Shown piece by piece: positions 1 through 62,297 of a stretch of 64,000 bases of DNA (the first letter of the stretch is position 1; every line of letters starts with the position of its first letter). Under the pieces are notes generated by a model that ran no database searches, was not told the DNA's origin, and saw only the letters and a program-made list of their open reading frames with translations. The translations under genes and the position numbers were made by a program. The stretch is from Bacteroidales bacterium (GTDB taxonomy: Bacteria; Bacteroidota; Bacteroidia; Bacteroidales; VadinHA17). Location of the stretch: assembly GCA_020201035.1 (NCBI GenBank), contig JAIVHO010000031.1, positions 230,122 through 294,121 on the forward strand, written 5' to 3'.

Positions 1-1028
1 TCAGGGGTGGGGACTATTCCCCCCATTCTTCCCCAGTGCTCTACCGGAATTAATCCGTTTACTGCCAGCCTGACGTCCTCTACCATCTGTCCGGCACTCA
101 TCTCCACGCAAAGTATTCCTTTTACCTGACCGGCTCTTTCATGTATTATCTTCTTCGGAAAAGGGAAGAGGGTAATTGGTCTGAGCAGCCCAACCTTGAT
201 TCCTTCCGCCCTGGCCAGCTGGATAGCCTTCTGACATACCCTTGCACTTGTACCATAGGCAACAAACAGATATTCAGCATCATCGCACTGAAACTCCTCA
301 TACCGTACCTCATTCTTTTCCATCTCGCGGTATTTGGCCTGCAGCTTATGATTAAACTGCTCCTGCTTTGCCGGATTGAGATCCAGGGAGGTAATGATAT
401 TGCGTTCACGCCCGGGTGTTTTACCGGTGGTTCCCCATTCGGGAAGTTTAAGGTTACGTTCCTTCTGCGGCTTCAGCCATACCTTCTCCATCATCTGACC
501 AATAGCTCCGTCAGAAAGGATCATGGCAGGGTTACGGTATTTGAATGCCAGATCAAAGGCAAGTTCCACAAAATCAGCCATCTCCTGCACCGAGGAAGGC
601 GCCAGCACTATAAGGTTATAGTCACCATGGCCACCGCCCTTGGTTGCCTGAAAATAGTCTGACTGTGCAGGCTGAATAGTGCCGAGTCCCGGACCTCCCC
701 TGACTACGTTCACTATCAGGCATGGTAGTTCAGCACCCGCTATATAGGTTATACCTTCCTGTTTGAGACTCACCCCGGGGGATGAGGATGAGGTCATCAC
801 CATCTTCCCGCAACCGGCACCTCCATATACCATATTGATTGCAGCAACTTCGCTCTCTGCCTGCAAAACAACCATTCCTGTTCGCTCATGAGGCTTCTCC
901 TGCATAAGATATTCCATCACTTCACTCTGCGGTGTTATGGGATAACCGAAATAACCATCGGCACCGGCCCTGATTGCTGCTTCAGCCAGGGCTTCGTTGC
1001 CTTTCATTAATCTTAATTCCTTTTCCAT
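1..1028 (-). CDS. vorB: 2-oxoacid:ferredoxin oxidoreductase, VorB/KorA-type subunit (3' end cut by window edge)
   Basis: About 342 codons are visible from the ATG at 1028, with no stop before the window edge. The product begins MEKELRLMKGNEALAEAAIR and reads through the pyrimidine-binding (domain I) region with GYPITPQSE, QAESEVAAINMVYGGA and SSSSPGVSLKQEG, which are hallmarks of the VorB/KorA family. It ends near MGGIVPTP, close to the usual C-terminus of this roughly 350-360-residue subunit. The enzyme oxidatively decarboxylates 2-oxoacids (branched-chain or 2-oxoglutarate) to acyl-CoA and reduces ferredoxin. The ferredoxin subunit lies 20 bp upstream. The TPP-binding and gamma subunits are presumably beyond the edge. 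Substrate choice between Vor and Kor is inferred; the nearby aminotransferase and acyl-CoA synthetase favour a fermentation role. Confidence 0.85.
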   Translation of the reverse strand, partial: MEKELRLMKGNEALAEAAIRAGADGYFGYPITPQSEVMEYLMQEKPHERTGMVVLQAESEVAAINMVYGGAGCGKMVMTSSSSPGVSLKQEGITYIAGAELPCLIVNVVRGGPGLGTIQPAQSDYFQATKGGGHGDYNLIVLAPSSVQEMADFVELAFDLAFKYRNPAMILSDGAIGQMMEKVWLKPQKERNLKLPEWGTTGKTPGRERNIITSLDLNPAKQEQFNHKLQAKYREMEKNEVRYEEFQCDDAEYLFVAYGTSARVCQKAIQLARAEGIKVGLLRPITLFPFPKKIIHERAGQVKGILCVEMSAGQMVEDVRLAVNGLIPVEHWGRMGGIVPTP

Positions 1029-1048
1029 TATCTTTTTTCTGTTTATTG

Positions 1049-1273
1049 TTAATTCTTTATACGGTAAACCGATATAACCCCGTCAGGACATACAACCGCA
1101 CAGTTTGTACAGCCGGTACAAGCATCATGGTTAACAGGCTCCGCATAGTGATAACCTTTACTGTTTACATTTGGTGAGAGCTCAATCACCGAGGCAGGGC
1201 ATGCTACCACGCATACTCCGCAACCCTTGCATTTTTCAATGTCAACAACTATCGCTCCTCTTACTTTGGCCAT
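1049..1273 (-). CDS. 2x[4Fe-4S] ferredoxin subunit of the 2-oxoacid oxidoreductase
   Basis: A 74-residue protein with two complete CxxCxxCxxxCP motifs (CKGCGVCVVACP and CTGCTNCAVVCP). This is the bacterial 2[4Fe-4S] ferredoxin fold used as the VorD/KorD delta subunit. It would pass electrons from the TPP active site to free ferredoxin. It sits directly upstream of vorB on the same strand with a 20-bp gap, and 26 bp downstream of the aminotransferase, so all three are probably cotranscribed. It could be called KorD as readily as VorD. Confidence 0.88.
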   Translation of the reverse strand: MAKVRGAIVVDIEKCKGCGVCVVACPASVIELSPNVNSKGYHYAEPVNHDACTGCTNCAVVCPDGVISVYRIKN

Positions 1274-1299
1274 TTTTCTATTATTAAAATTGTTACTAT

Positions 1300-2640
1300 T
1301 TAATTTCTGTTACTCACCGGATGATCTGATTCAAACTGCCTGAGCCGCTTCTCCAGGTCATCAAAGAGATCTCTCGGAACCATTGACACACATGCCCTTA
1401 TACCTTCAGTACGGTCGCTGCCAGTGATTGCAAGAGAGATAGCACTGATCCCGTAGCATAAAAGTTCTCTTAGAAGTGTTTCACCATCCATCCCTGGATA
1501 GGAGACTGTAAAATAGAAGCCATCTGCCACAGGGGTATCTATATCAGTATCATAAACAATGGTAAATCCGTTATCCGTGAAAAGCTTCTTCATTATGACA
1601 GCTTTGCGTCCGTACTCCAGCACATCTTCACGGTAGTTGTACTCCCGGTTATTTATTGCCCTGAACAGGGCTGTCAAGGCAGCCTGAACCGACTGTGGCA
1701 CTCCTGCTGAAAGAGCATAAAGAGCTCCGAAAATCATTGAGTGCCCAAACCTGTCTGAATTGTAATATCTCAGAAGGTCAGGATATCTCCTGTTATACAG
1801 ATGATCTGACATAACCAGCATACCGATACGCTGACCTGCATAGCTAAAGGCTTTTGAACTGGAGATAAGCATTATATAATCATCGCAATATTTTGCCACA
1901 GAAGGCTGGTAAGGTGGCACACCCGGCTGTGAATAGTCCTGCCTGAAATCCATCCCGAAATAAGCAAGATCTTCAATAACGACCACATCATATTTCTTCG
2001 CCAGCGTACCTATAATCTGCAACTCCTCTTCCGTGAAACATATCCAGGAGGGATTGTTCGGATTGGAATAGAGGATACTGGAGACCTTTCCCGTTTCCAG
2101 ATAGGACTCAAGCTTATCCCTCAGTTTTTCACCCCTGTAATTATATACATCAAAAGAGCGGAATTCCTGACCCAGTATTCTTACCTGCTGCTTCTGTACA
2201 GGGAAGCCCGGATCAATAAAAAGCGTCCCTTCCCGGGTGGCATCATTCCTGTTTACAACCAAAAAACTGGCTATTCCGCCCATCATTGAACCGATAGTGG
2301 GAACACACCCCTGCGGGCTTATGTCAATATCCAGAAAAAGCTTAAGAAACCTGGAGGTTTCATCCTTGAGTTCTCTCAATCCTTCAATATTGGGATAAAC
2401 AGACGCAAGACCTGAATCCAGAGCTTTCTTCTCTGCCTCAATTCCAATCTGCGGCGCCTTCAGTCCCGGCACCCCCATCTCCATCCGGATAAACCTTAAC
2501 CCGGTCTCCCTCTCCAGATTGTTAACAAGCTTAACTACCTCCCTGATACTTGAACGCATCACTGAACTTATCTCAAGTCGGGAAAGTACACTTTCCACTA
2601 TTTCCCTGCTTACAGGCGTACCATTCATACTTATTTCCAT
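1300..2640 (-). CDS. Fold-type I PLP-dependent aminotransferase
   Basis: A 446-residue class I/II aminotransferase-like protein. The Schiff-base lysine is in SSSKAFSYAGQRIG, the substrate-binding asparagines are in SNPNNPSW, and the PLP-ring aspartate is in VVIEDLAYFGMD. It is somewhat longer than typical 390-residue aminotransferases. It lies in the same direction as the ferredoxin and vorB genes. It would supply 2-oxoacids from amino acids for the oxidoreductase; this is inferred from context and the donor amino acid cannot be read from the sequence. An in-frame ATG four codons in (2628) is an alternative start. Confidence 0.85.
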   Translation of the reverse strand: MEISMNGTPVSREIVESVLSRLEISSVMRSSIREVVKLVNNLERETGLRFIRMEMGVPGLKAPQIGIEAEKKALDSGLASVYPNIEGLRELKDETSRFLKLFLDIDISPQGCVPTIGSMMGGIASFLVVNRNDATREGTLFIDPGFPVQKQQVRILGQEFRSFDVYNYRGEKLRDKLESYLETGKVSSILYSNPNNPSWICFTEEELQIIGTLAKKYDVVVIEDLAYFGMDFRQDYSQPGVPPYQPSVAKYCDDYIMLISSSKAFSYAGQRIGMLVMSDHLYNRRYPDLLRYYNSDRFGHSMIFGALYALSAGVPQSVQAALTALFRAINNREYNYREDVLEYGRKAVIMKKLFTDNGFTIVYDTDIDTPVADGFYFTVSYPGMDGETLLRELLCYGISAISLAITGSDRTEGIRACVSMVPRDLFDDLEKRLRQFESDHPVSNRN

Positions 2641-2848
2641 TCAAAAAGAGAGGGCAGCTATTGTGCCACCCTTCCTACATTTATTCAATACTACAGATGA
2701 TCCCTTTAATAAAAATAATATCACAGGCTATAAGACCTGATGATGTTAACACATCTCCCCTCTTCTCCATATTTCTGTATGTTTTATATGATATCATTGT
2801 TATCAGGAACCTTAAATATACAAAATTATCGCTAACCCCATTATGTTA

Positions 2849-3565
2849 TTAATCATTTTTGGCCCGGGCTGAAAATGCCAGTATAATACCCAGTATAATA
2901 CCGTATATTGCCGCAATCAGCACCCTGAACTTCTCCGGCATAAGAAAATTGAGTGTTTGGGCAGGAATCCAGAAAAGGGGGATGGTCCTTTTAATCACAA
3001 ATCCCCACAACATCTGCCAGTCGGTTCGCTCCAGTATCTCCCTCACCCTTACAGGCCGGAAAAAACCTGAAATAATGCCGCCGTTCATCACAATATGTGT
3101 GTCTGTTACCTTGTGCGTTACCATCAGAACAGGGGCATAAAAAATATTGAGCAAGGCGCTTATGGCAAATGCCACCCCTACCTTACCTGATGTGAGGGGT
3201 CCTGCAAGAGTCGATGATGCATCCCCTGCGCCTGCAAAAGTGAGCAATTCAGGGACCCCTCTGGCAAAAATTATAAATGCAGCCTGGATAGTCATACCCA
3301 GAAAGCCCCATACTATTGCCCTTGGAACAAGACCGAAGTCCTTTGCTGTATAACTGCCCGTCCTGATCCTCAGTCCTATTATCTCACCCGCAGTTGCCAG
3401 TATGGCAAACTTTATAAAACTGGTGATAAAAGGAAATGATCCGTAAAAATTATCATAGAAACTGTATGCTCTTTCAAACAATATAAAGGGAGCGAAAACA
3501 GCAGACAGGAACAGCAACGGATATATATCTTTTCTTTTCATCTGCAAACAGTTAATCTCTTTCAA
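2849..3565 (-). CDS. Mpv17/PMP22-like integral membrane protein
   Basis: A hydrophobic protein of 238 residues with about five membrane segments. The C-terminal stretch FWIPAQTLNFLMPEKFRVL matches the pattern of the Mpv17/PMP22 family signature (W-P-Q-xxNF-P-R). That family is best known from eukaryotic organelle membranes, with scattered bacterial members of unknown function. The start at 3565 overlaps the upstream acyl-CoA synthetase by 14 bp. An in-frame ATG at 3541 (MKRKDIYP) avoids the overlap and is equally plausible. It is probably in the same operon as the synthetase. Family assignment is by eye and moderate. Confidence 0.6.
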   Translation of the reverse strand: MKEINCLQMKRKDIYPLLFLSAVFAPFILFERAYSFYDNFYGSFPFITSFIKFAILATAGEIIGLRIRTGSYTAKDFGLVPRAIVWGFLGMTIQAAFIIFARGVPELLTFAGAGDASSTLAGPLTSGKVGVAFAISALLNIFYAPVLMVTHKVTDTHIVMNGGIISGFFRPVRVREILERTDWQMLWGFVIKRTIPLFWIPAQTLNFLMPEKFRVLIAAIYGIILGIILAFSARAKND

Positions 3566-11526: not shown

Positions 11527-12657
11527 ATGAGACAGAAAGTACTTGTTATGGGATGTGGCCTGGTAGGCTCAGCCATAGTAAAGGACCTCGCCCCTGAATA
11601 CAGGGTAACAGCAGCAGATATATCTGGCGAAAATCTCGGAATGATAAATTCAATCGCCGGAGTTGAGGTTGTTACTGCAGATCTGTCAGATGCAGCCACC
11701 GTTAATAAGCTGGCAGCGGATCATGACCTTGTAATTGGTGCCCTCCCGGGGTTTATGGGATACAACTCGGTAAAGCACGTTATTGCAGCAGGCAAAAATA
11801 TGGTAGATATATCCTTTTTCCCGGAGGATCCGTTCGGACTGGACCGACTGGCAAAATCAAAAGGAGTAACTGTGGTTACGGATTGCGGTGTGGCACCGGG
11901 TATGGGAAATATTATTCTGGGTTATCACCATCCCAGAATGAACGTTCAGAAGTTTACCTGTATGGTGGGCGGCCTGCCGTTTAAAAGAGAGTGGCCATGG
12001 CAGTATAAGGCTGTCTTTTCACCGGCTGATGTGATAGAGGAGTACACCAGACCTGCCCGCTATATCATCAATGGCGAAATGGTGATCAGGGAGGCTCTCT
12101 CTGAGCCTGAATATGTGGAGTTTGAAAAGGTCGGTACCCTTGAAGCATGGAATTCAGACGGACTAAGGAGTCTGATTCAAACCATGCCTGTACCCAACAT
12201 GATTGAAAAAACCCTCAGATATCCCGGAACCATCGATTACCTTAGAATGCTTCGTGAGACAGGTTTCTTCAGTAACGACGAAATAGAGGTGAAGGGCGTC
12301 AGGATCAAACCAATCGATCTCACCTCGCAACTGGTCTTCCCGAAATGGAAACTTAAGGAAGGAGAAGAGGATTTCACAGTAATGAGGATTGTGGTGGAGG
12401 GTATAAATGCGGGAGTAAAGGAGAGATATACCTATAACCTTTTTGACCGATTCGACAGGGATAACGGGATAACCAGTATGGCCCGTACCACTGGATATAC
12501 CTGCACTGCCGTGGCAAACCTGATGCTTGAAGGAAGATTCAGCAGACCCGGTATCAATCCGGCCGAATATACCGGCACAGAAGATGGTAACCTTACCTTT
12601 ATACTGGAATACCTGAAAGAGAGGAATGTAATCTACAGTATGGAAAAAATCAGCTGA
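11527..12657 (+). CDS. Saccharopine dehydrogenase / lysine 6-dehydrogenase-like oxidoreductase
   Basis: 376 residues. The Rossmann dinucleotide motif is at the very N-terminus (VLVMGCGLVGSAIVKDLA). It is followed by VTADLSD, DLVIGALPGFMGYNSVK and the conserved TDCGVAPGMGNIILG. The family oxidises or reduces the C-N bond of saccharopine, lysine or related amino acids with NAD(P). The exact substrate cannot be read from the sequence. It starts 15 bp after hydE and is probably cotranscribed. Its last 8 bp overlap the convergent TM1266-like gene. A link to hydrogenase maturation is not established. Confidence 0.78.
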   Translation: MRQKVLVMGCGLVGSAIVKDLAPEYRVTAADISGENLGMINSIAGVEVVTADLSDAATVNKLAADHDLVIGALPGFMGYNSVKHVIAAGKNMVDISFFPEDPFGLDRLAKSKGVTVVTDCGVAPGMGNIILGYHHPRMNVQKFTCMVGGLPFKREWPWQYKAVFSPADVIEEYTRPARYIINGEMVIREALSEPEYVEFEKVGTLEAWNSDGLRSLIQTMPVPNMIEKTLRYPGTIDYLRMLRETGFFSNDEIEVKGVRIKPIDLTSQLVFPKWKLKEGEEDFTVMRIVVEGINAGVKERYTYNLFDRFDRDNGITSMARTTGYTCTAVANLMLEGRFSRPGINPAEYTGTEDGNLTFILEYLKERNVIYSMEKIS

Positions 12658-13180
12658 AAGAGACTGCTGAAACAGTAATATCTCCTGATTCAGATAACCG
12701 CTTAAGCAGATTCATCTGTTCCTGCGTATCACCTGTAAGTTCAAGAACAATTATTCCAATATCGCGGCCGTTGACCCTCTCGTTCAGCCCCAGCCGAGTT
12801 CTTATTGAGCAGCCATATCTTGAAAGGATATCCTGCATCTCCGTAACCACCGTCTCCCGGTTATCAATTAACAGTGTTGCAATGGTCCGGTTAGCAATGA
12901 TCCCAGGCAGTATGTCGGTTCCTACCGAAGAACCAGTCGGGGTAACGTGACGCACCTCCAGCCCGCGGATAGTTTCAAGGCTGTCGAGCAGACTCCTGTA
13001 TCCATTATCCTCATCCCGCAGCAAAAGAACCATATAGGCCTCACGGCTGCATGTTTCTGAACTGAGTTCATGAAAACCAAGCCTTGCACGTATTGCTCCG
13101 GCGTGAGCGGTCAGAGCTTTCTGTGTATTTCCGGCCTCCTTTATCCTGTCTGTTATTCTGAGTGCAACAATTCTGATCAT
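12650..13180 (-). CDS. Tandem TM1266-type (iron-only hydrogenase system) regulator with two ACT-like domains
   Basis: 176 residues. The second half (from IATLLIDNRETVVTEMQDIL) matches the TM1266 'iron-only hydrogenase system regulator' pattern with RTRLGLNERVNGRDIGII and a closing VSAVSF. Family members are normally about 80-90 residues. The first half repeats the scheme (IVALRITDRI, RARLGFHEL, MVLLLRDED, LEVRHVTP), so this is an internal duplication of an ACT/NikR-C-like fold. The ligand and mode of action are unknown. It lies directly downstream of hydG on the same strand, separated by repeat copy 1. Confidence 0.72.
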   Translation of the reverse strand: MIRIVALRITDRIKEAGNTQKALTAHAGAIRARLGFHELSSETCSREAYMVLLLRDEDNGYRSLLDSLETIRGLEVRHVTPTGSSVGTDILPGIIANRTIATLLIDNRETVVTEMQDILSRYGCSIRTRLGLNERVNGRDIGIIVLELTGDTQEQMNLLKRLSESGDITVSAVSFS

Positions 13181-13196
13181 AGTACTCCCTGTTTAA

Positions 13197-13310
13197 TAAA
13201 TGGTATTATACCCCAGGGCAAGCCCTGGACCCTTCTTTCCGGGGCAAGCCCCGGGGAATTTAACCACACCCTCTCGTCCGCCGAAGCGGAACGCGAAGGT
13301 GGATTAAAAA
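13197..13310 (+). repeat. Interspersed structured repeat, copy 1
   Basis: Runs from TAAATGGTATTATA to GGTGGATTAAAAA. It contains three hairpins: CCAGGGCAAGCCCTGG (13213-13228), CCGGGGCAAGCCCCGG (13239-13254) and TCCGCCGAAGCGGA (13277-13290). The right end overlaps the last codons of hydG and supplies its stop codon (13304-13306). It is one of five copies in the window, all in this orientation. Confidence 0.9.
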
Positions 13311-14728
13311 TAGAGATCCCTCTCACCGTTCCTTATTCGCTGCAGCCTATCCTTCAGATCACCAACAATCTTCTCATCAATGGTTGCCAGATTTCTTTCG
13401 ATAGCCTTCCACCCCTTCTCTGCCAGCTCGGGCCCGGCATAATCCTCAATATATTCGGCAAGGGTTAATGCAGCATTTGGTGAGCAGTACCTCTTTATAA
13501 ATCCCGGAACTGAAAACTCCATAAAGTGTTCACCCGTTCTTCCCAACCGGTAACACGCAGTACAGAAAGAGGGAAGAAAGTCATCGTCCAGGAGCTCATC
13601 AATTACTTCGGCCAGACTCCTTTCATCACTTATCCTGAACTGCTCCCTGTTAAGATTCTGATCATTGTTTTTGATATCAGAGTAGGATCCCAGCTCAATC
13701 TTTGTACCGCCATCAATCTGTGAAACGCCATACTGAATAACCTCCCTGCGCACATCATGATCTTCGCGTGCAGTAAGTATCAGTCCGGTATATGGCACTG
13801 CAAGCCTAAGTATGGCAACAAGCTTCTTAAAATCATCATCACTCACCTGATACCTGTCATCCAGATCAAGTGCAGCAGCATCCTTTATTCTTGGGAAGGA
13901 GATGGTGTGGGGACCAACGTTGTAGCATGCCTCAAGGTGGTTGGTGTGTCTTACCAGACCCAGCACCTCAAAACGCCAGTCGTAAAGTCCAAACAACACC
14001 CCTATTCCAACATCATCTATTCCGGCCTCCTGAGCACGATCAAGTCCGGTCAGCCGCCATTCATAATCAGCCTTCTTTCCGCTCAGATGATACCATTTAT
14101 ATGCTTCCGGATGATATGTCTCCTGAAATATCTGATAGGTGCCAATACCTGATTTACCAACCGTTCTGAAACCCTCAATATCAAGAGGGGCTGCATTAAT
14201 ATTTACCCTTCTTATTTCACCATTACCTTTTTTTACGCTGTAGACCGTTCTGGCCGTATGCGCAATAAATTCCGGAGAATAGTCACGGTGTTCACCGTAA
14301 ACAAGGATTAATCTCTTCTGACCATTATCCTCAAGGGCCGCCACCTCCCTGACTATCTCTTCATCGCTGAGTGTCATTCGCTGAGCCTCTGTGTTACCCG
14401 ACCTGAAACCGCAGTAACTGCAGTTGTTACTGCAGTAATTTCCTACGTAGAGAGGAGCAAACAGAACTATCCTGTTACCGTAAACACGCTTTTTCAGTTC
14501 GCGCGCACCTTCTTTAATCTCTTCTATCAGTTCAGGGTCGGAAGCATTTACAAGCACAGCAGTCTCTTCGAGAGTTAGCCTCTGCTTATCCAGAGACTTT
14601 GCTATGACACTACGAACCTTCTCCCTGTCTGAAGTGGTATTGTTTATAATGTTCCATATTTCATCGGGATCAATAAAGGGCTTCATCCTTTCATCCCTGA
14701 TTGACAACTTTTCGGGTGTAAACTTCAT
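13304..14728 (-). CDS. hydG: [FeFe] hydrogenase H-cluster maturation radical SAM enzyme HydG
   Basis: 474 residues. The radical-SAM CxxxCxxC is at C99/C103/C106 (YCSNNCSYCGFRSGN). The C-terminal cluster motif CxxC-x22-C begins CTACYRLGRTGEHFMEF and ends RYC, and is diagnostic of HydG. The enzyme cleaves tyrosine to give the CO and CN- ligands delivered as an Fe-Cys synthon. A reverse TAnnTTTG box (CAAAAATA, 14838-14845) about 110 bp upstream is a possible promoter. The stop codon lies inside interspersed repeat copy 1, so the extreme C-terminus may have been altered by the repeat. Confidence 0.94.
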   Translation of the reverse strand: MKFTPEKLSIRDERMKPFIDPDEIWNIINNTTSDREKVRSVIAKSLDKQRLTLEETAVLVNASDPELIEEIKEGARELKKRVYGNRIVLFAPLYVGNYCSNNCSYCGFRSGNTEAQRMTLSDEEIVREVAALEDNGQKRLILVYGEHRDYSPEFIAHTARTVYSVKKGNGEIRRVNINAAPLDIEGFRTVGKSGIGTYQIFQETYHPEAYKWYHLSGKKADYEWRLTGLDRAQEAGIDDVGIGVLFGLYDWRFEVLGLVRHTNHLEACYNVGPHTISFPRIKDAAALDLDDRYQVSDDDFKKLVAILRLAVPYTGLILTAREDHDVRREVIQYGVSQIDGGTKIELGSYSDIKNNDQNLNREQFRISDERSLAEVIDELLDDDFLPSFCTACYRLGRTGEHFMEFSVPGFIKRYCSPNAALTLAEYIEDYAGPELAEKGWKAIERNLATIDEKIVGDLKDRLQRIRNGERDLYF

Positions 14729-14905
14729 CTCCCTTGCTCTCCTATATTATATAAATCACCGAAATATACCAACCTGATCTGAAATCCCATCCTCTTTCCG
14801 GTGCTGTCTGGAATTAAACTAAATAAAAAATATACTACAAAAATAGCAAAACCCTGATTAAAAACTTATGAATATTATCATGCAAAACAGCAGAAAATCA
14901 GAGAA

Positions 14906-15017
14906 TAAATGGTATTATACCCCAGGGCAAGCACTGGACCCTTCTTTCCGGGGCAAGCCCCGGGGAATTTAACCACACCCTCTCGTCCGCCGAAGCGGAA
15001 CGCGAAGGTGGATTAAA
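14906..15017 (+). repeat. Interspersed structured repeat, copy 2
   Basis: Same element as copy 1, upstream of hydG, so hydG is bracketed by two direct copies 1.7 kb apart. It has a base change in the first hairpin (GCACTGG in place of GCCCTGG) and a right end of GATTAAATTT. The rest of the 14729-15036 gap is AT-rich with no gene seen. Confidence 0.9.
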
Positions 15018-21752: not shown

Positions 21753-23705
21753 TTATCTAACAATTACTGCCCCGAATTTACAAACCTCAAAACAGAGCCC
21801 GCATCCGGCACATCTCTCCTCCACAATAAAGTGAGGCTGCAGCCTGGTACCATATATGGCTCCTGCCGGACATCTCACGGCACACAGGGTACATCCTGTA
21901 CACTTTTCAACATCGATAGAAAAAATCCTCAGTCCCCTGCAGTGACCGGTTCTGCAGATACGGTCAAATATATGCTCCTCAAGCTCCGCCCTGAATCCGG
22001 TCATAAGATCAAGCAGCAGGTTGGGCGCATTTTGTCCCAATCCGCATAACGACGTCTCCTTCATAACCCTTGCAATTGTCTCAAGCTGCATTACACCCCT
22101 GAACCTTGAAAGAGCACTCTCGCCTTCCGCTTCCGAGGGCCTTGAGGTAACTGAATTCATAATATAATGCAATCTGCCGGTACCCTCACGGCATGGAATA
22201 CACTTACCACAGCTCTGGTCTTTTAAAAATGCAAGAGAATACCTTACCAGATCAACCAGGCAGGTAGCTTCACCCAAAAGCACCACTCCTCCTGAGCCGA
22301 GTGAAACGGATTGATTGGCCGCTTCATCAAAATCAATCTTTAATCCTGTTGCTGCAGGAGGAAGGATATGGCCGGCCGGACCGCCAAGCAGCACTCCCTT
22401 CAGTTCATCTCCTCCCACAACACCGTCACAGACATTATTTATCAGATAGTCTATGCTTTTGCCCATCTCCACCTCAACCAGTCCTTTGAGCCTGGCATCT
22501 CCCGTAACATAAAACAGTTTTGTCCCTGGACATCCTTCACTGCCTGTTCCCCGGTAATGATCAGGACCATCCCTCATAATAACCGGAATGTTAGCGAGTG
22601 TTTCAGGATTATTTATTATTGTGGGAAACCCCTTGTATCCGTTGGTGGCAGGATAGGGCGGCTTCAGCTGTGGCATGCCTCTTTTCCCCTCCAGACTGCT
22701 GATCAAGGCAGTCTCTTCGCCACATACAAATGCACCGGGATTAATCCGTAGCTCTATATTAAAACTGAATCCGCTGTCAAAAATATCATATCCCAGGAGT
22801 CCGGTCGCACGTGCCGCCTCTATAGCCTCTGATACAACCCTTACGGCATAATCAGACCTGTTATGTATTGCTATTATCCCCTGGCCGGCACCCGTTGCAT
22901 ATCCGGCAATTGCCATTCCTTCAATAACAGAGTGGGGCTGAGTCTCAAGCAGCAGTGTATCGGTTGAACTTCCCGGATCACTCTCCATCGCATTGCACAC
23001 TATATACCTGGTAGCTGAATCGGTGGCAAGTGCATTTTTCCACTTTTCTGCTGTGAAATATCCCGATCCGCTCCTGCCCCTGAGCTGCGCAGCTTCTACG
23101 GTACTTACAACCTCTTCCATTGTAAAATTACGGATCGTCCTTACCAGACTTGTATATCCACCACGTGCAATGTAACCTGCTGCATCAGATGGATTATAAC
23201 AATTAAAATTATTCAGTACCTGCCTTCTCTGAGAAACAATCCATTTAATGTCATCTACCCAGACAATACCCGGCCAGGCCTCAAAACCCCTGTTCCCCTG
23301 TTGTCCTATAAGGTCACTCTCAGGTATATCATTATGGAAAACACCATTAATGACACCATCTATTTTTTCCGGCGTTACATTCCTGAATATCAATCTGTTT
23401 CTGCCAGGCATCTGTACAGACACCATGGGAATATAGTTTAAAGGCCCCTGATAGCCGGCAGCCACAAGATCGGCCTCAATATCATGATCGTCCATAAACT
23501 CCCTGACTGCCCGCCAGGTATCCATTGCCCCTGCAAGTATGGCACCACCGGAGAATCCAACCCTGATAACAGGCCTCACAACCTTGTCGCCACGCAACAT
23601 GGCAAGCCTTACCCTATCTTCAGAGGCGGGTCCGGTTTCGTGAGCCGAAAGAAGTATCCTCTTTAGAAAAGAGATCTCATTTTCAAGCCGAGCAGACTTA
23701 TTCAT
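21753..23705 (-). CDS. HydB/NuoF-like flavoprotein subunit with altered FMN loops
   Basis: 650 residues with the HydB layout: N-terminal thioredoxin-like domain (about 40-115), NuoF FMN/NAD(H) core (about 140-440), [4Fe-4S] site CGKCIPCREGTG (C499, C502, C505, plus the later SLCGLG), and two C-terminal [4Fe-4S] motifs (CTGCTLCAVRCP, CAGCGLCFEVCK). The usual thioredoxin-like [2Fe-2S] cysteines are absent (VGFSGGAILAG, AGYQGPLNYIP). FMN motifs differ from consensus: RGRSGSGYF for RGRGGxGFP, NAMESDPG for N(A/G)DEGDPG, and IIAIHNRSDY for YIYxRxEYP. GAFVCGEETALISSLEGKRG is intact. It overlaps hydC by 8 bp. Confidence 0.85.
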   Translation of the reverse strand: MNKSARLENEISFLKRILLSAHETGPASEDRVRLAMLRGDKVVRPVIRVGFSGGAILAGAMDTWRAVREFMDDHDIEADLVAAGYQGPLNYIPMVSVQMPGRNRLIFRNVTPEKIDGVINGVFHNDIPESDLIGQQGNRGFEAWPGIVWVDDIKWIVSQRRQVLNNFNCYNPSDAAGYIARGGYTSLVRTIRNFTMEEVVSTVEAAQLRGRSGSGYFTAEKWKNALATDSATRYIVCNAMESDPGSSTDTLLLETQPHSVIEGMAIAGYATGAGQGIIAIHNRSDYAVRVVSEAIEAARATGLLGYDIFDSGFSFNIELRINPGAFVCGEETALISSLEGKRGMPQLKPPYPATNGYKGFPTIINNPETLANIPVIMRDGPDHYRGTGSEGCPGTKLFYVTGDARLKGLVEVEMGKSIDYLINNVCDGVVGGDELKGVLLGGPAGHILPPAATGLKIDFDEAANQSVSLGSGGVVLLGEATCLVDLVRYSLAFLKDQSCGKCIPCREGTGRLHYIMNSVTSRPSEAEGESALSRFRGVMQLETIARVMKETSLCGLGQNAPNLLLDLMTGFRAELEEHIFDRICRTGHCRGLRIFSIDVEKCTGCTLCAVRCPAGAIYGTRLQPHFIVEERCAGCGLCFEVCKFGAVIVR

Positions 23706-24168
23706 TTTTTATCCCCTTGATAAATTTTCTGATCCCGGCCACAGGATCATCTCCATCTTCAAACAACACAGGTTCTCCATTATAAAGAACAACGGGGCCC
23801 TTCTGACAGGCACCACGACACCCTGTAAGATCAAGACTCCACTGCGAATCAGTGCTTACACCACCGGGTAATACACCCGTCTCATCTTCAATCATACGGG
23901 TGATCATCTCCGATCCTCTCATCCAGCATGTTGCCCCGCAGCATACAACAAAATGGTTACTGCCCCTCCTCCTGAACCTGAATTCATCATAGAACGTGGC
24001 AAGGGAGTATATCCTGGCAGTACTGATGCCCAGATATTCTCCTGTCACTGCAACAGCCTCCTCGTCAATAAAGCCCCTCTCCTCCTGTATCTTCATAAGG
24101 ATTGGAATCAGATGCTCCCTTGATGCTCCGGTGTATTGTCTGAATATATTTGACAGATAGTTTTCCAT
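23698..24168 (-). CDS. HydC/NuoE-like [2Fe-2S] subunit
   Basis: 156 residues from the ATG at 24168 (MENYLSNIFRQ). The frame opens further upstream at a TTG at 24213, but that codon lies under the probable -7 promoter box (24211-24218), so the ATG is preferred. The NuoE fold is seen in IPILMKIQEERGFI and IYSLATFYDEF. The [2Fe-2S] ligands are CCGATC (Cx4C) and CRGAC (Cx3C). It is the first gene of the operon and would carry electrons to HydB. Unlike HydA and HydB its cofactor motifs look normal. Confidence 0.88.
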   Translation of the reverse strand: MENYLSNIFRQYTGASREHLIPILMKIQEERGFIDEEAVAVTGEYLGISTARIYSLATFYDEFRFRRRGSNHFVVCCGATCWMRGSEMITRMIEDETGVLPGGVSTDSQWSLDLTGCRGACQKGPVVLYNGEPVLFEDGDDPVAGIRKFIKGIKNE

Positions 24169-24210
24169 TCCCTCTGAATAACTAAAAACCTGTTTAAAAC
24201 GTGATTTGCA

Positions 24211-24218
24211 CAAATATA
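24211..24218 (-). promoter_or_regulatory. Probable -7 box of the hydCBA operon
   Basis: CAAATATA on the plus strand reads TATATTTG on the minus strand, a full match to TAnnTTTG. It is 43 bp upstream of the hydC ATG. No clean TTTG -33 box lies at the expected distance. Confidence 0.5.
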
Positions 24219-24249
24219 AAAATAATTATAATTGTTATCACTAAAACAG

Positions 24250-24265
24250 TGTTATTTTATTAACA
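24250..24265. promoter_or_regulatory. Candidate Rex operator upstream of hydC
   Basis: TGTTATTTTATTAACA is a dyad with TGTTA and TAACA arms and matches the core of the Rex consensus (TTGTTAAnnnnTTAACAA) except at one inner base. It sits just upstream of the hydC -7 box, in the operon that encodes rex. A second small dyad, CACTAAAACAGTG (24239-24251), adjoins it. Confidence 0.45.
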
Positions 24266-24505
24266 TCTTAGGACAACGACCATCCTCCATCTGCATTTTC
24301 CCGCCCTGCAATACTTAAGCAAGACGCAAAAGTTGAAAAAAGGAAGAGAGTTAACACCGAAGGCACCTGACAGGCAGTTTCCCTATTTGCTTCAGGTTTC
24401 AGTTAAATATATAGCGCTGGATATCATCTTTTTAATAATGCCAAAAGCTGTTTAAGTCTCCATCTGCGCCATACCGGAAAGCAATCTTTTAAAATATTTA
24501 AGGAA

Positions 24506-24532
24506 TTGTTATTCAGGAATTATGTATTTTTG
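24506..24532 (+). promoter_or_regulatory. Probable promoter of the ferredoxin-HydS-SpoIIE operon
   Basis: TATTTTTG at 24525-24532 matches TAnnTTTG. A TTG at 24506-24508 could serve as -33, though the 16-bp spacing is short. The box is 21 bp before the GTG start. The rest of the 24169-24552 divergent region is AT-rich without a gene. Confidence 0.45.
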
Positions 24533-24552
24533 AACTGTTATTACAAAAACAG

Positions 24553-24810
24553 GTGACTTTGTCAAAAACATATAACATAACGATTTGCATGGGAAGTTCC
24601 TGTTTCTCAAGGGGCAATAAAGAGATACTTGAGAAAATAAGAGAATTTATAACAAGGCATCACCTTACCGACAGGGTTATTCTACGGGGATCACATTGTC
24701 TGGGAAACTGCAGTAAAGGTCCATCGATGATTGTTGATGACAGGCTTATCTCTCCTCTCTCAATAGTCACAATTGACTCAATTCTGGAGAAAGAGCTGAA
24801 AACCGGATAA
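24553..24810 (+). CDS. Thioredoxin-like [2Fe-2S] ferredoxin
   Basis: 85 residues from a GTG start at 24553; a TTG two codons later is an alternative. The [2Fe-2S] pattern is CMGSSC (Cx4C) and CLGNC (Cx3C), as in the thioredoxin-like ferredoxins related to NuoE. Such small ferredoxins often accompany HydS-type sensors in hydrogenase clusters. It is the first gene of the divergent plus-strand operon. Its TAA stop coincides with the first bases of repeat copy 3, so the repeat may define its C-terminus. Confidence 0.82.
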   Translation: MTLSKTYNITICMGSSCFSRGNKEILEKIREFITRHHLTDRVILRGSHCLGNCSKGPSMIVDDRLISPLSIVTIDSILEKELKTG

Positions 24811-24921
24811 ATGGTATTATACCCCAGGGCAAGCCCTGGATCCTTCTTTCCGGGGCAAGCCCCGGGGAATTTAACCACACCCTCTCGTCCGCCGAAGCGG
24901 AACGCGAAGGTGGATTAAAAA
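24808..24921 (+). repeat. Interspersed structured repeat, copy 3
   Basis: Same element as copy 1, with all three hairpins kept. It fills nearly the whole gap between the ferredoxin stop and the next ATG (24930), so it must be transcribed within the operon mRNA. Confidence 0.92.
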
Positions 24922-24929
24922 CAGAGACT

Positions 24930-26795
24930 ATGTCAAATAATGATCCGGTAATATTTATCAATAACAAGAAGTGTAACAACTCATATTCCTGCGTCAGGGT
25001 TTGCCCTGTCAAAGCGATAGAAGTAACTCCGGGAAGGGAGCATCCTGTGATACTGCCCAACAGATGCATAGGGTGCGGACTATGTTTTATTGCATGTGCA
25101 ACAGGAGCAGTTGAGTACAGAAATTCAACAGGATCAGTTAAGTCAGCACTTGAATCTGACACTCGTACAGTGGCCCTGGTGGCTCCCAGTATTGCATCAG
25201 AATTTGATGATATAACGGATTACCGCAAGCTGGTTGCAATGATCAGGTCACTCGGTTTTGATTATGTACATGAAGTATCCTTTGCCGTTGATATAGTTGC
25301 ATCGGCCTACCGGCAGCTGTTCGAAGAGAGTGGGGGCAAATATTATATTACTTCAAACTGCCCTTCAATAGTAAAGATGGTAAGGAAGTATTACCCTGAG
25401 ATGGTCCCAAATCTTGCCCCGGTTGTCTCTCCGGCAATTGCGGCCGGAATAATGGTAAAGAAAATCTACGGGGAGGAGATAAAAAGCGTCTTCATTGGCC
25501 CCTGTATTGATGCAAAGGATGAGATACTCTCTCACCCCGGGAAACCAGTTGACGAGGTACTTACATTCCTTGAACTTCGTGAACTTTTCAGCCTGCAATC
25601 GGTACAGGAAAAAAATGTTTCATTCTCTGACTTTGACCCGCCACACGGCAACTGGGGCGCACTTTACCCCATTCCCGCCGGCATATTGCATGCTGCAGGT
25701 ATTAAACGCGATCTGATGGAGAGTGGAATTATCACAGCATCAGGAAGGGAGGAGTCAATAGAGGCACTTAACGACTTTAATAAACACATTGATACAATCA
25801 GGCACCACTTTAATCTCTTTATTTGCCACGGCTGTCTGCTCGGACCCGGAATGGAACACCATAATGAAAGATTCAGAAGGCGTGACCTCGTAAGAAAATA
25901 TTCTGCAAAAAGGGTAAATACGCTGGATAAGGAGGAATGGACCGGGGCAATGAACAAATGGTCAGAGCTGGATCTTTCCGCATCATTCACTCCTGACGAC
26001 CGGCGACTTCCGGAACCACCTGAAGAGGCTATAGATGAGGTGCTTAAAATAATCGGCAAGGAGAATGACAGCAATGATGGCGACTGCCGTGCATGCGGAT
26101 ATGAATCGTGTCGCGACTTCGCCGTAACTGTTGCCCAGGGACTTACAATACCAGAGATGTGCCATAAATTCAATATTCGAAACAAGGAGGATTATATTGA
26201 GAAGCTGCGTAAGACAAACAAAAAACTGGCTGAAACAAGAAAGGCACTGATGGAATCGGAGAAAACAGCCCTGCGCGAAAGCGAAACGGCCCTGGAAGCT
26301 TCTGAAACTCTCAGCTCAATGATAGAAAAGCTTCCGTCAGGAGTAGTGATTGTTGATAATCACCTTAAGGTGGTGCATTCAAACAGTGCATTTATAACGC
26401 TGCTTGGAGAGGATGCCACATCTGTGGCTGAGGTTATCCCGGGACTTATGGGAGCAGATATTAAGTCTCTCCTTCCTTTTAATATATACAATATGTTCAG
26501 CTATTCACTGAAACAGGATGAACCTGTAGTAAGCCGGGATATAAGCCTGGGAGACAGGATGCTGAATGTTTCAGTTTTCCCTATCACACCCAAAAAAATT
26601 GCAGGAGCTATCCTGAGGGATATCTACTCTCCCGAAGTGCATGGAGAAGAGGTAATCACCAGAATCACGGATGTTATTGACAAAAATCTGGCGATGGTGC
26701 AAAAAATAGGTTTTCTGCTGGGAGAAGGGGCCTCTGAGACAGAGAAGATGCTCAACTCGATCCTTGAATCGTATAAAAAAGTAAAAAGAGATTGA
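24930..26795 (+). CDS. HydS-type sensory [FeFe]-hydrogenase-like protein with Fes and PAS domains
   Basis: 621 residues. Domains in order: two [4Fe-4S] motifs (second is CIGCGLCFIAC), an H-domain with TSNCPSIV (N143, C144), GPCIDAKDE (C192) and ICHGCLLGPGM (C299, C302), a Fes domain (CRACGYESC, then C411), a coiled coil (about 420-470) and a PAS domain (about 470-570). The proton-relay cysteine is Asn143, as expected for non-catalytic group C/D sensory proteins. There is no kinase domain. It is followed by a SpoIIE phosphatase, its likely output partner. It is the intact paralogue of the broken gene at 18214-20017. Confidence 0.88.
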   Translation: MSNNDPVIFINNKKCNNSYSCVRVCPVKAIEVTPGREHPVILPNRCIGCGLCFIACATGAVEYRNSTGSVKSALESDTRTVALVAPSIASEFDDITDYRKLVAMIRSLGFDYVHEVSFAVDIVASAYRQLFEESGGKYYITSNCPSIVKMVRKYYPEMVPNLAPVVSPAIAAGIMVKKIYGEEIKSVFIGPCIDAKDEILSHPGKPVDEVLTFLELRELFSLQSVQEKNVSFSDFDPPHGNWGALYPIPAGILHAAGIKRDLMESGIITASGREESIEALNDFNKHIDTIRHHFNLFICHGCLLGPGMEHHNERFRRRDLVRKYSAKRVNTLDKEEWTGAMNKWSELDLSASFTPDDRRLPEPPEEAIDEVLKIIGKENDSNDGDCRACGYESCRDFAVTVAQGLTIPEMCHKFNIRNKEDYIEKLRKTNKKLAETRKALMESEKTALRESETALEASETLSSMIEKLPSGVVIVDNHLKVVHSNSAFITLLGEDATSVAEVIPGLMGADIKSLLPFNIYNMFSYSLKQDEPVVSRDISLGDRMLNVSVFPITPKKIAGAILRDIYSPEVHGEEVITRITDVIDKNLAMVQKIGFLLGEGASETEKMLNSILESYKKVKRD

Positions 26796-34712: not shown

Positions 34713-34797
34713 AACCGGGTGAGCCGGGTGGCTGTTTAACAGAGTGGTTGCAAGGAAGTATTTCTGCGCAGCCAACTATTTGGTTTGCCCGGTATCT

Positions 34798-34905
34798 GCT
34801 GCCGGAAAAGGAAGCTGCCGGAAAAGGAAGCTGCCGGAAAAGGAAGCTGCCGGAAAAGAAGCTGCCGGAAAAGAAAGAAGCCGGAAAAGGAAGCTGCCGG
34901 AAAAG
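34798..34905. repeat. Short tandem repeat, about 7 x 16 bp
   Basis: Seven copies of GCCGGAAAAGGAAGCT, starting at 34801, 34817, 34833, 34849, 34864, 34880 and 34896; copies 4 and 5 carry small indels. It lies in the spacer and ends 3 bp before the stop of the SpmA/SpmB-like gene. Confidence 0.9.
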
Positions 34906-34908
34906 ATA

Positions 34909-36141
34909 TCAGGCAAAGAAGAGATAACCAATAAATATTGCGGCAATAATACCGGTAAAATCAGCAATCAGTCCGCACGTAACGGCATACCTGGTATTTC
35001 GGATCCCGACTGATCCAAAGTAGACCGCAATTATATAGAAGGTTGTGTCGGTAGCCCCCTGGAGCGTTGATGCTAGTCGCCCCGTAAAGGAATCAGCGCC
35101 AAAGGTGGTCATTGCATCCACCATCATCCCTCTGGCACCTGCTCCGCTCAAAGGCTTCATAAGGGCTGTTGGAAGGGCATCCACAAAACCTGCATCTATT
35201 CCGGTGGCAATTACCACCGCCCTTATTCCCTCAATCAGATAGTCCATGGCACCTGACGCCCTGAAGACACCTATGGCAACCAGTATGGCAACCAGGAAGG
35301 GAATAATCCTTACGGCGATATTAAATCCATCCTTCGCCCCCTCAATAAAGGTATCGTAAATATTTACCCTCTTCCGCATGCCCAGAATAATAAAGACCAC
35401 AATGGTTGAAAAGAGGAGAAAACTGGCAATAAAGGTTGATATGGCTGTTATCTGGTCTTTATCGAGGCGACTGAAATACCAGATTATGCCTGCAATAATA
35501 AGTGTCATTCCGCCCAGATAGGCAAGAATCACCCTGTCATACAGTTTGATTTTCTGCATTATTGATACCGATATCAGCCCGGCTATTGTGGAGAAGAATG
35601 TGGCAAGCAGTATCGGCAGAAATATGTCGGCCGGATTAACAGCACCCAGCTGTGCCCGGTAAACCATAACGCTTACCGGGATTATTGTCAGCCCTGATGT
35701 ATTAAGAACCAGAAACATTATCTGTGCATCTGACGCCCTCTCCTTCTCGGGATTAACCTCCTGCATCTGCTCCATGGCCTTGAGTCCCATCGGAGTGGCA
35801 GCGTTATCCAGCCCGAGCATATTGGCGGCCAGGTTCATCATAATTGATCCGTAGGCAGGATGATCAGGAGGCAAACCAGGAAACAGCCGTCTGAAAAAGG
35901 GTCCCACCACCCGTGACATAATTCGTACAACACCACCCTTTTCCCCAATTTTCATTATTCCCATCCAGAGCGAGAGAACACCTGTCAGACCCAGTGAAAG
36001 TTCAAATCCTGTTTTGGCACTATCAAAGGTTGAGTTAAGGATATCACTGAAAACCTGCGTATTACCTGTAAATATCAACTGTACAAGTGCAAAGACAAAT
36101 GCAATCAGAAAAAAAGAAATCCAAATATAATTAAGGGCCAT
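34909..36141 (-). CDS. Nucleoside-recognition domain membrane protein (SpmA-SpmB fusion type)
   Basis: The ATG at 36141 (MALNYIWISF) is chosen because the longer frame from 36195 runs into the divergent gene and its promoter. The product is 410 residues with about ten membrane segments. It carries two nucleoside-recognition (Gate) domains. The first has MNLAANMLGLDNAATPMGLKAM (SpmA-like); the second has MKPLSGAGARGMMVDA and QGATDTTFYIIAVYFG (SpmB-like). It is a predicted transporter, named after spore-maturation proteins but widespread in non-sporulating Bacteroidota. The substrate is unknown. Confidence 0.85.
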   Translation of the reverse strand: MALNYIWISFFLIAFVFALVQLIFTGNTQVFSDILNSTFDSAKTGFELSLGLTGVLSLWMGIMKIGEKGGVVRIMSRVVGPFFRRLFPGLPPDHPAYGSIMMNLAANMLGLDNAATPMGLKAMEQMQEVNPEKERASDAQIMFLVLNTSGLTIIPVSVMVYRAQLGAVNPADIFLPILLATFFSTIAGLISVSIMQKIKLYDRVILAYLGGMTLIIAGIIWYFSRLDKDQITAISTFIASFLLFSTIVVFIILGMRKRVNIYDTFIEGAKDGFNIAVRIIPFLVAILVAIGVFRASGAMDYLIEGIRAVVIATGIDAGFVDALPTALMKPLSGAGARGMMVDAMTTFGADSFTGRLASTLQGATDTTFYIIAVYFGSVGIRNTRYAVTCGLIADFTGIIAAIFIGYLFFA

Positions 36142-47080: not shown

Positions 47081-48349
47081 CTAAATGCTCCAGGGTGGTC
47101 TCATTGGCTGGAAAATCATCCTGTTGGCACCTTCATCATCAATAAACCTCTGATTCACCGGGTCAAACTTAAGGTTGCGTCCAAGGCGCAACGCCGTAAT
47201 CCCAAGATTAACCAGGGTGCACGACCGGTGACCGTTAACCTCATTCAGTGCAAATTTCTGTCTGGTACGCACCGATTCACTGAAACTGGTTATTTCAGGC
47301 TCAGGATCAGGCAGAGACTCTGCCAGCCTCTCAATATCCATGATATCTGACCTGAATCCCTTAAATATTTTTCCATCTGGCCCCTCAATATAAGCAGCAT
47401 CGCGGTCCATGTTGGCACCATCAAGGATTATCCTGCATCCGTCAGCATAAGTATATTCAATCCTGCGCCATGAGCCTACTGCATCATAGTGTTGCTGGGG
47501 TGCATCAATCTCAACTGAAACAGGTGAAGTATGATCTTTCCCGAGCATATACTGAACCGGATCAAGGTAGTGCTGCCCCATATCCCCCAGACCTCCCCCG
47601 TCGTAATCCCAGTATCCCCTGAAATTAGCGTGAACCCTGGCTTCATTATAGGGCTTCACAGGGGCCGGACCAAGCCACATATCATAATCAAGCCACTCCG
47701 GAACCTGCTGCGGTTCAAGGTTATGCTTCCCGCTCCAGTAAAATTTCCAGTCGTAACCGGTAACCCCGCTTACTGTCACTTTCAGTGGCCAGCCAAGCAC
47801 CCCGCTGTCAATTATCTTCTTAAGAGGCTTAACAGTTGTGCCCAGGCCGTAGAACTGATCCTTAAACCTGAACCAGGTATTAAGCCTGAACATTGCACCG
47901 TTTCTCCTGACTGCCTCCACAACCTTAATGCCTTCTCCTATCGTTCTGGTCATTGGTTTCTCACACCATATATCCTTGCCCGCCTCTGCTGCCATAACCG
48001 ACATAATTCCATGCCAGTGTGGTGGAGTGGCAATATGAATAATATCAATATCAGGCCTCAGGATCATCTCCCTGAAATCGGTGAACAGTGGAACACCTTT
48101 CCCTGTAATTGAGAGTGCTGATTCAAGATGTTTGCGGTCAACATCACACATGGCAACCACTCTGGTACCCTCATACGGTATATGGCCTTTCCCCATACCC
48201 CCCAGACCTATTACTCCTTTTGTAAGTTGTTCTGATGGTGCTGTATAGCCTTTTCCGCCAAGAACATGCCTTGGCACCACCGTTAATGCAAATGCTGCTG
48301 ACGCTGATTTCCTCAGAAAACTTCGTCTGCAATATCCTTCTGATTTCAT
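47081..48349 (-). CDS. Gfo/Idh/MocA-family oxidoreductase with Tat signal
   Basis: 422 residues. It starts with a Tat-type signal (CRRSFLRKSASAAFALTVV), followed by the NAD(P)-binding motif KGVIGLGGMGKGH, then IIHIATPPHWH, the Gfo/Idh signature WCEKPMTRT and a C-terminal domain with GGGLGDMGQHYLD. Secreted Gfo/Idh proteins of Bacteroidota keep a tightly bound cofactor and oxidise or reduce sugars at C3. It pairs with the downstream double-DUF1080 protein as a likely 3-keto-sugar unit. Confidence 0.88.
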   Translation of the reverse strand: MKSEGYCRRSFLRKSASAAFALTVVPRHVLGGKGYTAPSEQLTKGVIGLGGMGKGHIPYEGTRVVAMCDVDRKHLESALSITGKGVPLFTDFREMILRPDIDIIHIATPPHWHGIMSVMAAEAGKDIWCEKPMTRTIGEGIKVVEAVRRNGAMFRLNTWFRFKDQFYGLGTTVKPLKKIIDSGVLGWPLKVTVSGVTGYDWKFYWSGKHNLEPQQVPEWLDYDMWLGPAPVKPYNEARVHANFRGYWDYDGGGLGDMGQHYLDPVQYMLGKDHTSPVSVEIDAPQQHYDAVGSWRRIEYTYADGCRIILDGANMDRDAAYIEGPDGKIFKGFRSDIMDIERLAESLPDPEPEITSFSESVRTRQKFALNEVNGHRSCTLVNLGITALRLGRNLKFDPVNQRFIDDEGANRMIFQPMRPPWSI

Positions 48350-48387
48350 ACGTTTAAAATTTTGTAATTATCTGACAAGAAGTTAAA

Positions 48388-48501
48388 TAAATGGTATTAT
48401 CCCCCAGGGCAAGCCCTGGACCTTTCTTTCCGGGGCAAGCCCCGGGGAATTTAACCACACCCTCTCGTCCGCCGAAGCGGAACGCGAAGGTGGATTAAAA
48501 A
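48388..48501 (+). repeat. Interspersed structured repeat, copy 4
   Basis: Same element as copy 1 with a few substitutions (TATTATCCCCC in the left part). It lies 38 bp upstream of the Gfo/Idh start on the opposite strand. Confidence 0.92.
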
Positions 48502-48843
48502 TTTGAGGACGAATGGAACCGTTTCGCTTTCTCATAATACTTTTTAAACATATTCTTTTGTGATATTTATGCTTAAATAATATCATGTTCGTTTCATTTT
48601 ACTATATTTTTTTAACCTACCGCAGTGCCAATATCATAAAGCAGTGGGTATTATTCACCCGCCCACAATTTACCCGCCCGTAGTATGAGTATAGTCGGGG
48701 TATAATTTACCCGTCCGCAGTGTAGGTACAAATAGAGTCACTGGTGCGGAATTATAGCTTAAATATAGTAAATAAGCAGCTAAAAAAAGCAAAACACTGC
48801 TTATGCCACAGAAAAAGGTCCGGGCTGTCAGAGAGATTCCATC
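48502..48843. repeat. Intergenic spacer with imperfect ~30-bp direct repeat
   Basis: The 48502-48843 stretch has no convincing gene. At 48645-48730 it has imperfect copies built on GGGTATAATTTACCCGYCCG, followed by a YAGTRT element. The remainder is AT-rich. Confidence 0.45.
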
Positions 48844-55978: not shown

Positions 55979-56021
55979 CATTAGAAACAGAATTAAAAGA
56001 AGGTTCATTAAATAGTTTTAT

Positions 56022-56148
56022 TAAATGGTATTATTAAATGGTATTATCCCCCAGGGCAAGCCCTGGACCCTTCTTTCCGGGGCAAGCCCCGGGGAATTTA
56101 CCCACACCCTCTCGTCCGCCGAAGCGGAACGCGAAGGTGGATTAAAAA
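56022..56148 (+). repeat. Interspersed structured repeat, copy 5 with a doubled left end
   Basis: The main element runs from 56035. A second copy of its first 13 bases (TAAATGGTATTAT) begins at 56022, giving a short direct repeat. It carries the three hairpins and lies 28 bp before the glutaredoxin gene. Confidence 0.92.
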
Positions 56149-60397: not shown

Positions 60398-60422
60398 GGC
60401 TGTCCGCAAGGGGCAGCTTTTT
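60398..60422 (+). terminator. Rho-independent terminator after malic enzyme
   Basis: GGCTGTCC-GCAA-GGGGCAGC stem-loop followed by TTTTTC, 29 bp after the malic enzyme stop. Confidence 0.72.
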
Positions 60423-60443
60423 CTTTGTAGTACCCTTTCATCA

Positions 60444-60539
60444 GATTAATACCGCTTCATCAACTCAGATTAATACCGCTTCATCAACTCAGATTAATAC
60501 CGCTTCATCAACTCAGATTAATACCGCTTCATCAACTCA
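60444..60539. repeat. 24-bp tandem repeat, 4 copies, that includes the kinase stop codon
   Basis: Four perfect 24-bp units start at 60444, 60468, 60492 and 60516. On the minus strand each unit holds the bases for the end of the cytidylate-kinase-like protein (ELMKRY and a TAA). The gene uses the stop in the last unit (60518-60520), so three extra copies lie downstream of it. Confidence 0.92.
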
Positions 60540-62294: not shown

Positions 62295-62297
62295 AAG

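Follow-up and report, generated by a model that had tools for sequence, protein, structure and literature searches.

A 108-bp palindromic repeat of a Bacteroidales genome is a predicted non-autonomous single-stranded-DNA transposon of the IS200/IS605 family

The window, the whole 64,000-nucleotide stretch of DNA analyzed here, contains five copies of a 108-bp repeat. Analysis of the sequences suggested that the repeat is very probably a homogeneous PATE (palindrome-associated transposable element), a non-autonomous single-stranded-DNA transposon of the IS200/IS605 family. This assignment is based on clean insertion, covarying hairpins, ends in common with IS200-type elements, joint changes of guide and target, and orientation relative to the replication strand. 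The element is a new family; the kind of element, the PATE, is already known. The assignment would explain an abundant and so far unnamed repeat of uncultured Bacteroidota, with about 50 copies in a 2.8-Mb genome, and tie it to a mechanism.

Copies in the window and in the genome

The five window copies were recovered by a repeat search. They are 93-98% identical over 121 nt and are all in the + orientation. In the alignment of the five, identity stops sharply at [A/T]TAAATGG and GGATTAAA. The search, the alignment and folding bear out the initial annotation, which had described five near-identical copies with three hairpins each at these places. Its limits for the first copy, 13197-13310, are replaced by an insert of 108 bp at 13196-13303, as the final bases TTAAA are target DNA. 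The top strand of the element, TTTAA^TCC..CCATTTAT, is on the minus strand in this copy, and likewise in copies 2 (14905-15012, target TTTAA at 15013-15017), 3 (24807-24914, target TTTAA at 24915-24919), 4 (48387-48494) and 5 (56034-56141, target TTTAA at 56142-56146). Ahead of copy 5 stands another copy of its own right end, with TTAAATGGTATTAT present twice in tandem at 56015-56050, as if the element had inserted beside a remnant of another.

The host genome is a 2.83-Mb metagenome-assembled genome (MAG) of 76 contigs, 94% complete. It holds at least 40 full matches, so copies are present well outside the window. Pairing the pattern matches of both ends gave about 50 copies, whose two ends are about 113 or 84 nt apart; no long, gene-carrying version was found among them in this genome-wide search. 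Forty-eight distinct copies were read together with their flanks. The core is 107 nt in 38 copies, 106 nt in three and 81 nt in seven. Ten of the 48 are letter-identical, which supports the earlier suggestion of recent spread. In the 81-nt-core copies hairpins 2 and 3 are fused (CCCCGGGGCTTGCCCTGGGG), as expected from a deletion between two GGGCTTGCCC repeats.

An open frame had also been reported on the minus strand of every copy. Of the 48 copies of this genome, 41 have frame 0 open and 41 have frame 1 open; among 22 relatives the counts are 11 and five, respectively, so that each frame is closed in at least half of them. On these counts the open frame was rejected as a signal and is not meaningful.

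Insertion site and ends

Several copies of the element lie inside members of another repeat, family B. One of them is copy 4; the family-B member around it spans 48344-48597 on the plus strand, measures about 145 bp without the insert and is interrupted at TTAA^TTAA. Empty homologous sites are present elsewhere in the genome. Empty sites read ..AGTTAATTAAAAATTTGAG.. and filled ones ..AGTTAA[WTAAATGG..GGTGGA]TTAAAAATTTGAG..; in longer reads these are ..GACAAGAAGTTAATTAAAAATTTGAG.. and ..GACAAGAAGTTAA[WTAAATGG...GGTGGA]TTAAAAATTTGAG.., respectively. Comparison of the two states indicates that the insert is 108 bp and that no base was duplicated or lost, its limits being ambiguous by at most the single base W. 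Filled family-B members share private variants with different empty ones (L107 with L083, L174 with L087-L089, and L096 with L078), which points to three or more separate insertions at the same position. The filled members fall in at least three sub-lineages that also have empty members.

On the minus strand the insertions follow the rule TTTAA^TCC...CCATTTA[T/A]^[T/C]. The target is TTTAA at 38 of the 48 insertions and a near variant at the remainder. A pyrimidine (T or C) directly follows the element in all 48. For copy 1, the empty family-B sites and the 38 insertions place the target pentanucleotide, the predicted left cleavage site C_L, at 13304-13308 (minus strand). The right end CCATTTAT at 13196-13203 (minus strand) contains the probable right cleavage site, TTTAT/TTTAA; the right ends of the related insertion sequences (IS) finish in TTTATT/TTCATT. 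The target duplication that had been proposed as a check was not observed, either between empty and filled family-B sites or as a consistent duplication of 2-9 bp in the 48 copies.

Hairpins and covariation

Both strands of the repeat fold far better than shuffled sequences (z -3.7 to -6.2), and all three hairpins are present. In copy 1 all of them are described on the minus strand. Hairpin 1 (TCCGC-TTCG-GCGGA, 13277-13290) is an extra left-end hairpin. Hairpin 2 (CCGGGGC-TT-GCCCCGG, 13239-13254) is equivalent to the left-end palindrome of the IS, and hairpin 3 (CCAGGGC-TT-GCCCTGG, 13213-13228) is the right-end palindrome. Just 5' of the foot of hairpin 2 is the putative left guide TTAAA (13259-13263), complementary to the target TTTAA and placed as in the autonomous elements described below.

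The recommended covariation test was carried out on 22 aligned versions. Base pairs are changed on both sides in six of seven positions in each of hairpins 2 and 3, i.e. in 12 of 14. In the structure as a whole, 93% of cells pair, compared to 38-45% when the structure is slid along the alignment, and none of 500 shuffles scored as high. Hairpin 1 hardly varies and therefore carries little covariation information. In some versions its loop contains a 35-nt palindromic insert (GCGCCACCGCTAAAGCTTTAGGCGGCACGCGGTCG) that is common to several genomes (loci L072-L076, L192, L201, L209 and L229 of CSMAG_3029; L187 and L202 of CSMAG_2400).

Orientation, replication strand and gene context

The single orientation noted earlier is correct for the window; in the genome as a whole both orientations occur. 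Copies on the same contig tend to point the same way (27 of 31, simulated p=0.0024). Since raw 20-kb GC skew is dominated by gene strand and was uninformative, we used GC3 skew corrected for gene strand as a proxy for replication direction. The orientation of the repeat follows it (p=0.0003 for 43 copies; p=0.006 for 33 regions; sign test p=0.002), with an effect size that is approximate because genes were called roughly. The TTTAA-bearing strand is the G-rich strand and, as the parental strand, would be the lagging-strand template. The bias fits insertion into this template, a preference known for IS608 and ISDra2 (PMC6006769), and accounts for the single orientation in the window. It may also serve to mark the direction of replication in draft genomes.

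The copies are mostly intergenic. In the 48 cases the flanking genes are divergent in 15, co-directional in 26 and convergent in seven, and within the co-directional gaps the orientation relative to the genes is random (15 v 11, p=0.56). A terminator function was rejected on this gene context.

These data bear on the possibility that the repeat is a structured RNA or a cis-regulatory leader or terminator, spread by a transposon but kept for its RNA function. A structured RNA was among the initial suggestions, and its structural part stands: the fold is strong and stable on both strands, the covariation is real, and most copies are intergenic. However, covariation is equally expected for hairpins that TnpA reads as single-stranded DNA, no Rfam match was found in the window or in relatives, and the mixed gene context, the random orientation in co-directional pairs and the agreement with replication skew do not favor an RNA function. 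The repeat is probably not a functional RNA, and we regard this explanation as very improbable. Such repeats should no longer be annotated as RNA genes or short proteins.

The repeat family in relatives

Recognizable copies are found in 15 of 60 related genomes, and diverged versions in Bacteroidota MAGs. A scan of public genomes found at least 83 stretches; among the matches listed, all but one carry the label Bacteroidota or that of one of its subgroups. The left end, TTTAATCC.CCTTCGCGTTCCGC-NNCG-GCGGACGAGAAGG, shows almost no variation, in part because the scan pattern demands it, and the interior is modular. The right end is of two types, ..TTTAATACCTCG-hairpin-CGAGGTAGTTTATT (type 1) and ..TTTAATACC-A-TTTATT (type 2, in this genome). 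Both occur on the same left end in nzgw129. A covariance model run on 297 genomes of the phylum, with strict filters and 12 candidates scored per genome, matched only this genome, a result that speaks just against the family being common in the sampled phylum genomes. Viral contigs gave no match to the repeat.

Autonomous elements and the helper transposase

Consistent with the initial annotation, no transposase is near the repeats, and for Y1 enzymes this holds genome-wide: a Y1_Tnp search of the 94%-complete genome gave no matches, and the TnpA clade described below is also absent. The helper transposase that was to be sought is thus missing here; relatives contain autonomous elements with the same ends. 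Probing Y1 loci with the hairpin-1 start of the repeat found nothing, because the autonomous elements do not have hairpin 1. BLAST of whole repeat versions against the Y1 loci of relatives matched two loci, L113 and L115, right beside the gene.

L113 is organized as CTCTAA^TCTCTTTGGGGTTAGTTCCCCGAAGCTCTGCTTCGAGAAA - tnpA - TTTTAATACCTCGCAGCTCTGCTGCGAGGTAGTTTATT. Its TnpA of 148 aa matches the NCBIfam IS200/IS605 transposase (1.6e-40). Against solved transposases it matches 2xm3 (5e-21), whose group we take to be ISDra2 TnpA, and ISHp608 2a6m (2e-16). A search with this TnpA showed the clade to be present in 15 of 393 order genomes; within the family nine of 117 genomes matched, under a looser cut-off by which other clades pass as well. 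One genome, G241, contains five identical autonomous copies whose flanks are unrelated; their limits are TTTAA^TCTC and GATTCATT.

The autonomous elements (L113, L115, L264-L273, L278-L283, L318 and L319) start with T[T/C]TAA^TC. Like the repeats, they carry a left guide followed by a TTCC[C/T]CG-hairpin and a matching right end, in most ..TACC..TTTATT/TTCATT. The right end of L113, TTTAATACCTCG-hairpin-CGAGGTAGTTTATT, is the right end of the repeat in HyVt-579, AUK127 and nzgw129 with few changes. The left hairpin is present in all intact members of the clade and the right hairpin in nearly all; among the Y1 genes read from other clades, none has both. Unlike the repeat, the autonomous elements encode TnpA, are without hairpin 1 and were not found in this genome.

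The right-end subtype of this genome is without the terminal hairpin of the autonomous relatives, and no TnpA with the type-2 right end (TATAATACC-A-TTTATT) was found among the TnpA elements of relatives. The shared left end and the two right-end types of nzgw129 suggest, indirectly, that this subtype is related to the autonomous elements. Genomes with the repeat and genomes with the TnpA clade overlap little, and the clade TnpA is absent from most repeat-bearing genomes. The Y1 genes of repeat-bearing genomes have flanks without repeat ends, except L307, a decayed relative with a type-1 right end. The helper of the subfamily in this genome may have been gained and lost, may be missing from the assembly, or may be another Y1 enzyme. 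That it is missing from the assembly is conceivable because identical IS copies assemble badly. A separate observation concerns L297 (GMC10 MAG, 57-3189), in which the gene for a divergent Y1 (HUH) protein of about 200 aa is flanked by a cas1-like gene and, on the other side, an ORF identified by eye as cas9-end-like.

Guide and target

The autonomous elements use two targets. Those at TCTAA have TTAG (or TTTG) just 5' of the left hairpin foot, and those at TTTAA have TAAA, TTAA or another A-ending tetranucleotide there. The base before the foot is G in all seven TCTAA cases and A in all nine TTTAA cases (Fisher p=9e-5); two further TCTAA/TTAG cases are known beyond the 16 tested. TTAG:CTAA and TTAA:TTAA are antiparallel complements. 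Mapped on the TnpA tree, the target label has switched about four times (bootstrap 3-5). In the distant members L271-L274 and L279 the guide (..AGAA) is not a full complement of the target, so the case for pairing comes from the main clade.

By analogy with IS608, the joint change of guide and target is the behavior expected of a C_L/G_L pair (PMC5934647, PMC6006769). The autonomous relatives thus appear to be a natural experiment on guide-target pairing, with about four joint changes inside a single clade of TnpA, in support of the reprogramming logic that laboratory work showed for IS608. In the repeats of this genome the guide TTAAA stands opposite the target TTTAA. Two odd repeats fit the pairing as anecdotes: L064 (target TTTTA, guide TAAAA) and L056 (target TTGAA, guide TTTCA).

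Comparison with known systems

The closest parallels are with the PATEs of Haloquadratum walsbyi (PMC3119063). Both are too short to code, have no terminal inverted repeats or target duplication, and carry near-terminal palindromes, IS605-type ends and an adjoining target oligonucleotide. Both show core deletion between two palindromes, here in the 81-nt-core copies, and insertion into other repeats. They differ in host, Bacteroidota rather than haloarchaea, in partner, here a TnpA-only IS200-type element, and in target, here TTTAA. The repeat also has the extra conserved left-end hairpin 1 and modular interiors.

IS608 and ISDra2 encode an HUH/Y1 TnpA homologous by sequence to that of the relatives. 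They share with the repeat sub-terminal hairpins, a target-pairing guide 5' of the hairpin foot, the preference for the lagging-strand template, and a base preference just past the cleavage site (TTAC|C and TTGAT|G, compared to TTTAA|Y in the repeat) (PMC5934647, PMC6006769). The repeat is without tnpA or tnpB, and the letters of target and guide are different.

The repeat also resembles the REP, REPIN and BIME sequences and CGTC-tagged palindromes in being short, palindromic, intergenic, multi-copy and Y1-linked (PMC3733652, PMC6006769). A REP/BIME-type repeat mobilized by TnpA_REP (RAYT) instead of an IS200 TnpA would agree with the many RAYT-like Y1 genes in relatives; each of the 12 repeat-bearing genomes tested gave one or more Y1 matches, mostly to divergent proteins of about 200 aa. 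However, no Y1 match of any kind was found in this genome, and the other-clade Y1 genes that were read are not flanked by the repeat ends (TTTAATCC..CCATTTATT), whereas the intact IS200-clade genes are. The repeat has no GTAG or GGAG foot (PMC3733652, PMC6006769), GT[AG]G being absent at all three hairpin feet, and is built asymmetrically from three different hairpins, with ends that are defined. In CGTC-type REPs an unpaired CGTC tag precedes a stem that starts with A/T pairs (PMC3733652). The corresponding letters at 13275-13278 (plus strand) are largely inside the paired stem and are followed by C-G pairs. The REP/BIME analogy offered initially does not survive this comparison, and mobilization by a RAYT is very unlikely. 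A classical MITE with terminal inverted repeats (TIRs) moved by a DDE transposase would likewise be short, non-coding, multi-copy and near identical, but is barely credible given the clean insertion at empty sites, the lack of target duplication, and the lack of any inverted pair, beyond a few bases, between the ends ATAAATGG.. and ..GGTGGA. What remains of the earlier term MITE-like is a non-autonomous transposon, of the palindrome-associated IS200/IS605 type.

Proposed mechanism

For a PATE of this type, we propose that TnpA acting in trans would bind the hairpins of the strand TTTAA-TCC...CCATTTAT when it is single-stranded, i.e. in the lagging-strand template. The guide TTAAA would pair with TTTAA, and TnpA would cut after TTTAA and after the final TTTAW. 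The element would leave as a single-stranded circle and join another TTTAA^Y. Copies with the 81-nt core would arise by deletion between hairpins 2 and 3. The movement, the circle and the helper are inferred.

A more speculative scenario, which we consider possible but rather doubtful, is that a transposase-less single-stranded-DNA lineage persists and amplifies across uncultured Bacteroidota mostly without a matching TnpA. It would use transient or unrelated TnpAs through the guide-target pair, and hairpin 1 would be an added feature that makes it a better substrate than its parent.

Neighboring repeats and genes

Family B is an asymmetric repeat of about 145 bp (TTTCATACGTTTAAAATTTTG...CATGTTCGTTTCAT) with a GAACCGCTTCGCTC segment (loci L078-L107). 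More than 40 matches are found in the genome, including partial ones, and some 20 members are uninterrupted. Family B is probably another mobile repeat. Family C is a short element with 16-bp inverted ends, ATTAACTTTTTTAATC, found around positions 1500-1660 of loci L001 and L010. Both inverted ends contain TTTTTTAATC, and L001 and L010 carry the 108-bp repeat at mirror-image TTTAA sites. The window contains three tandem arrays, at 62256-62507 (42-bp unit), 60417-60560 (24 bp) and 34782-34938 (about 16 bp). The genes near copies 1-3 (12650-13180, 13304-14728 and 23698-26795) include those for a TM1266-like regulator, a radical SAM/BATS protein and the large subunit of an iron-only hydrogenase. 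These copies are located in an [FeFe]-hydrogenase neighborhood.
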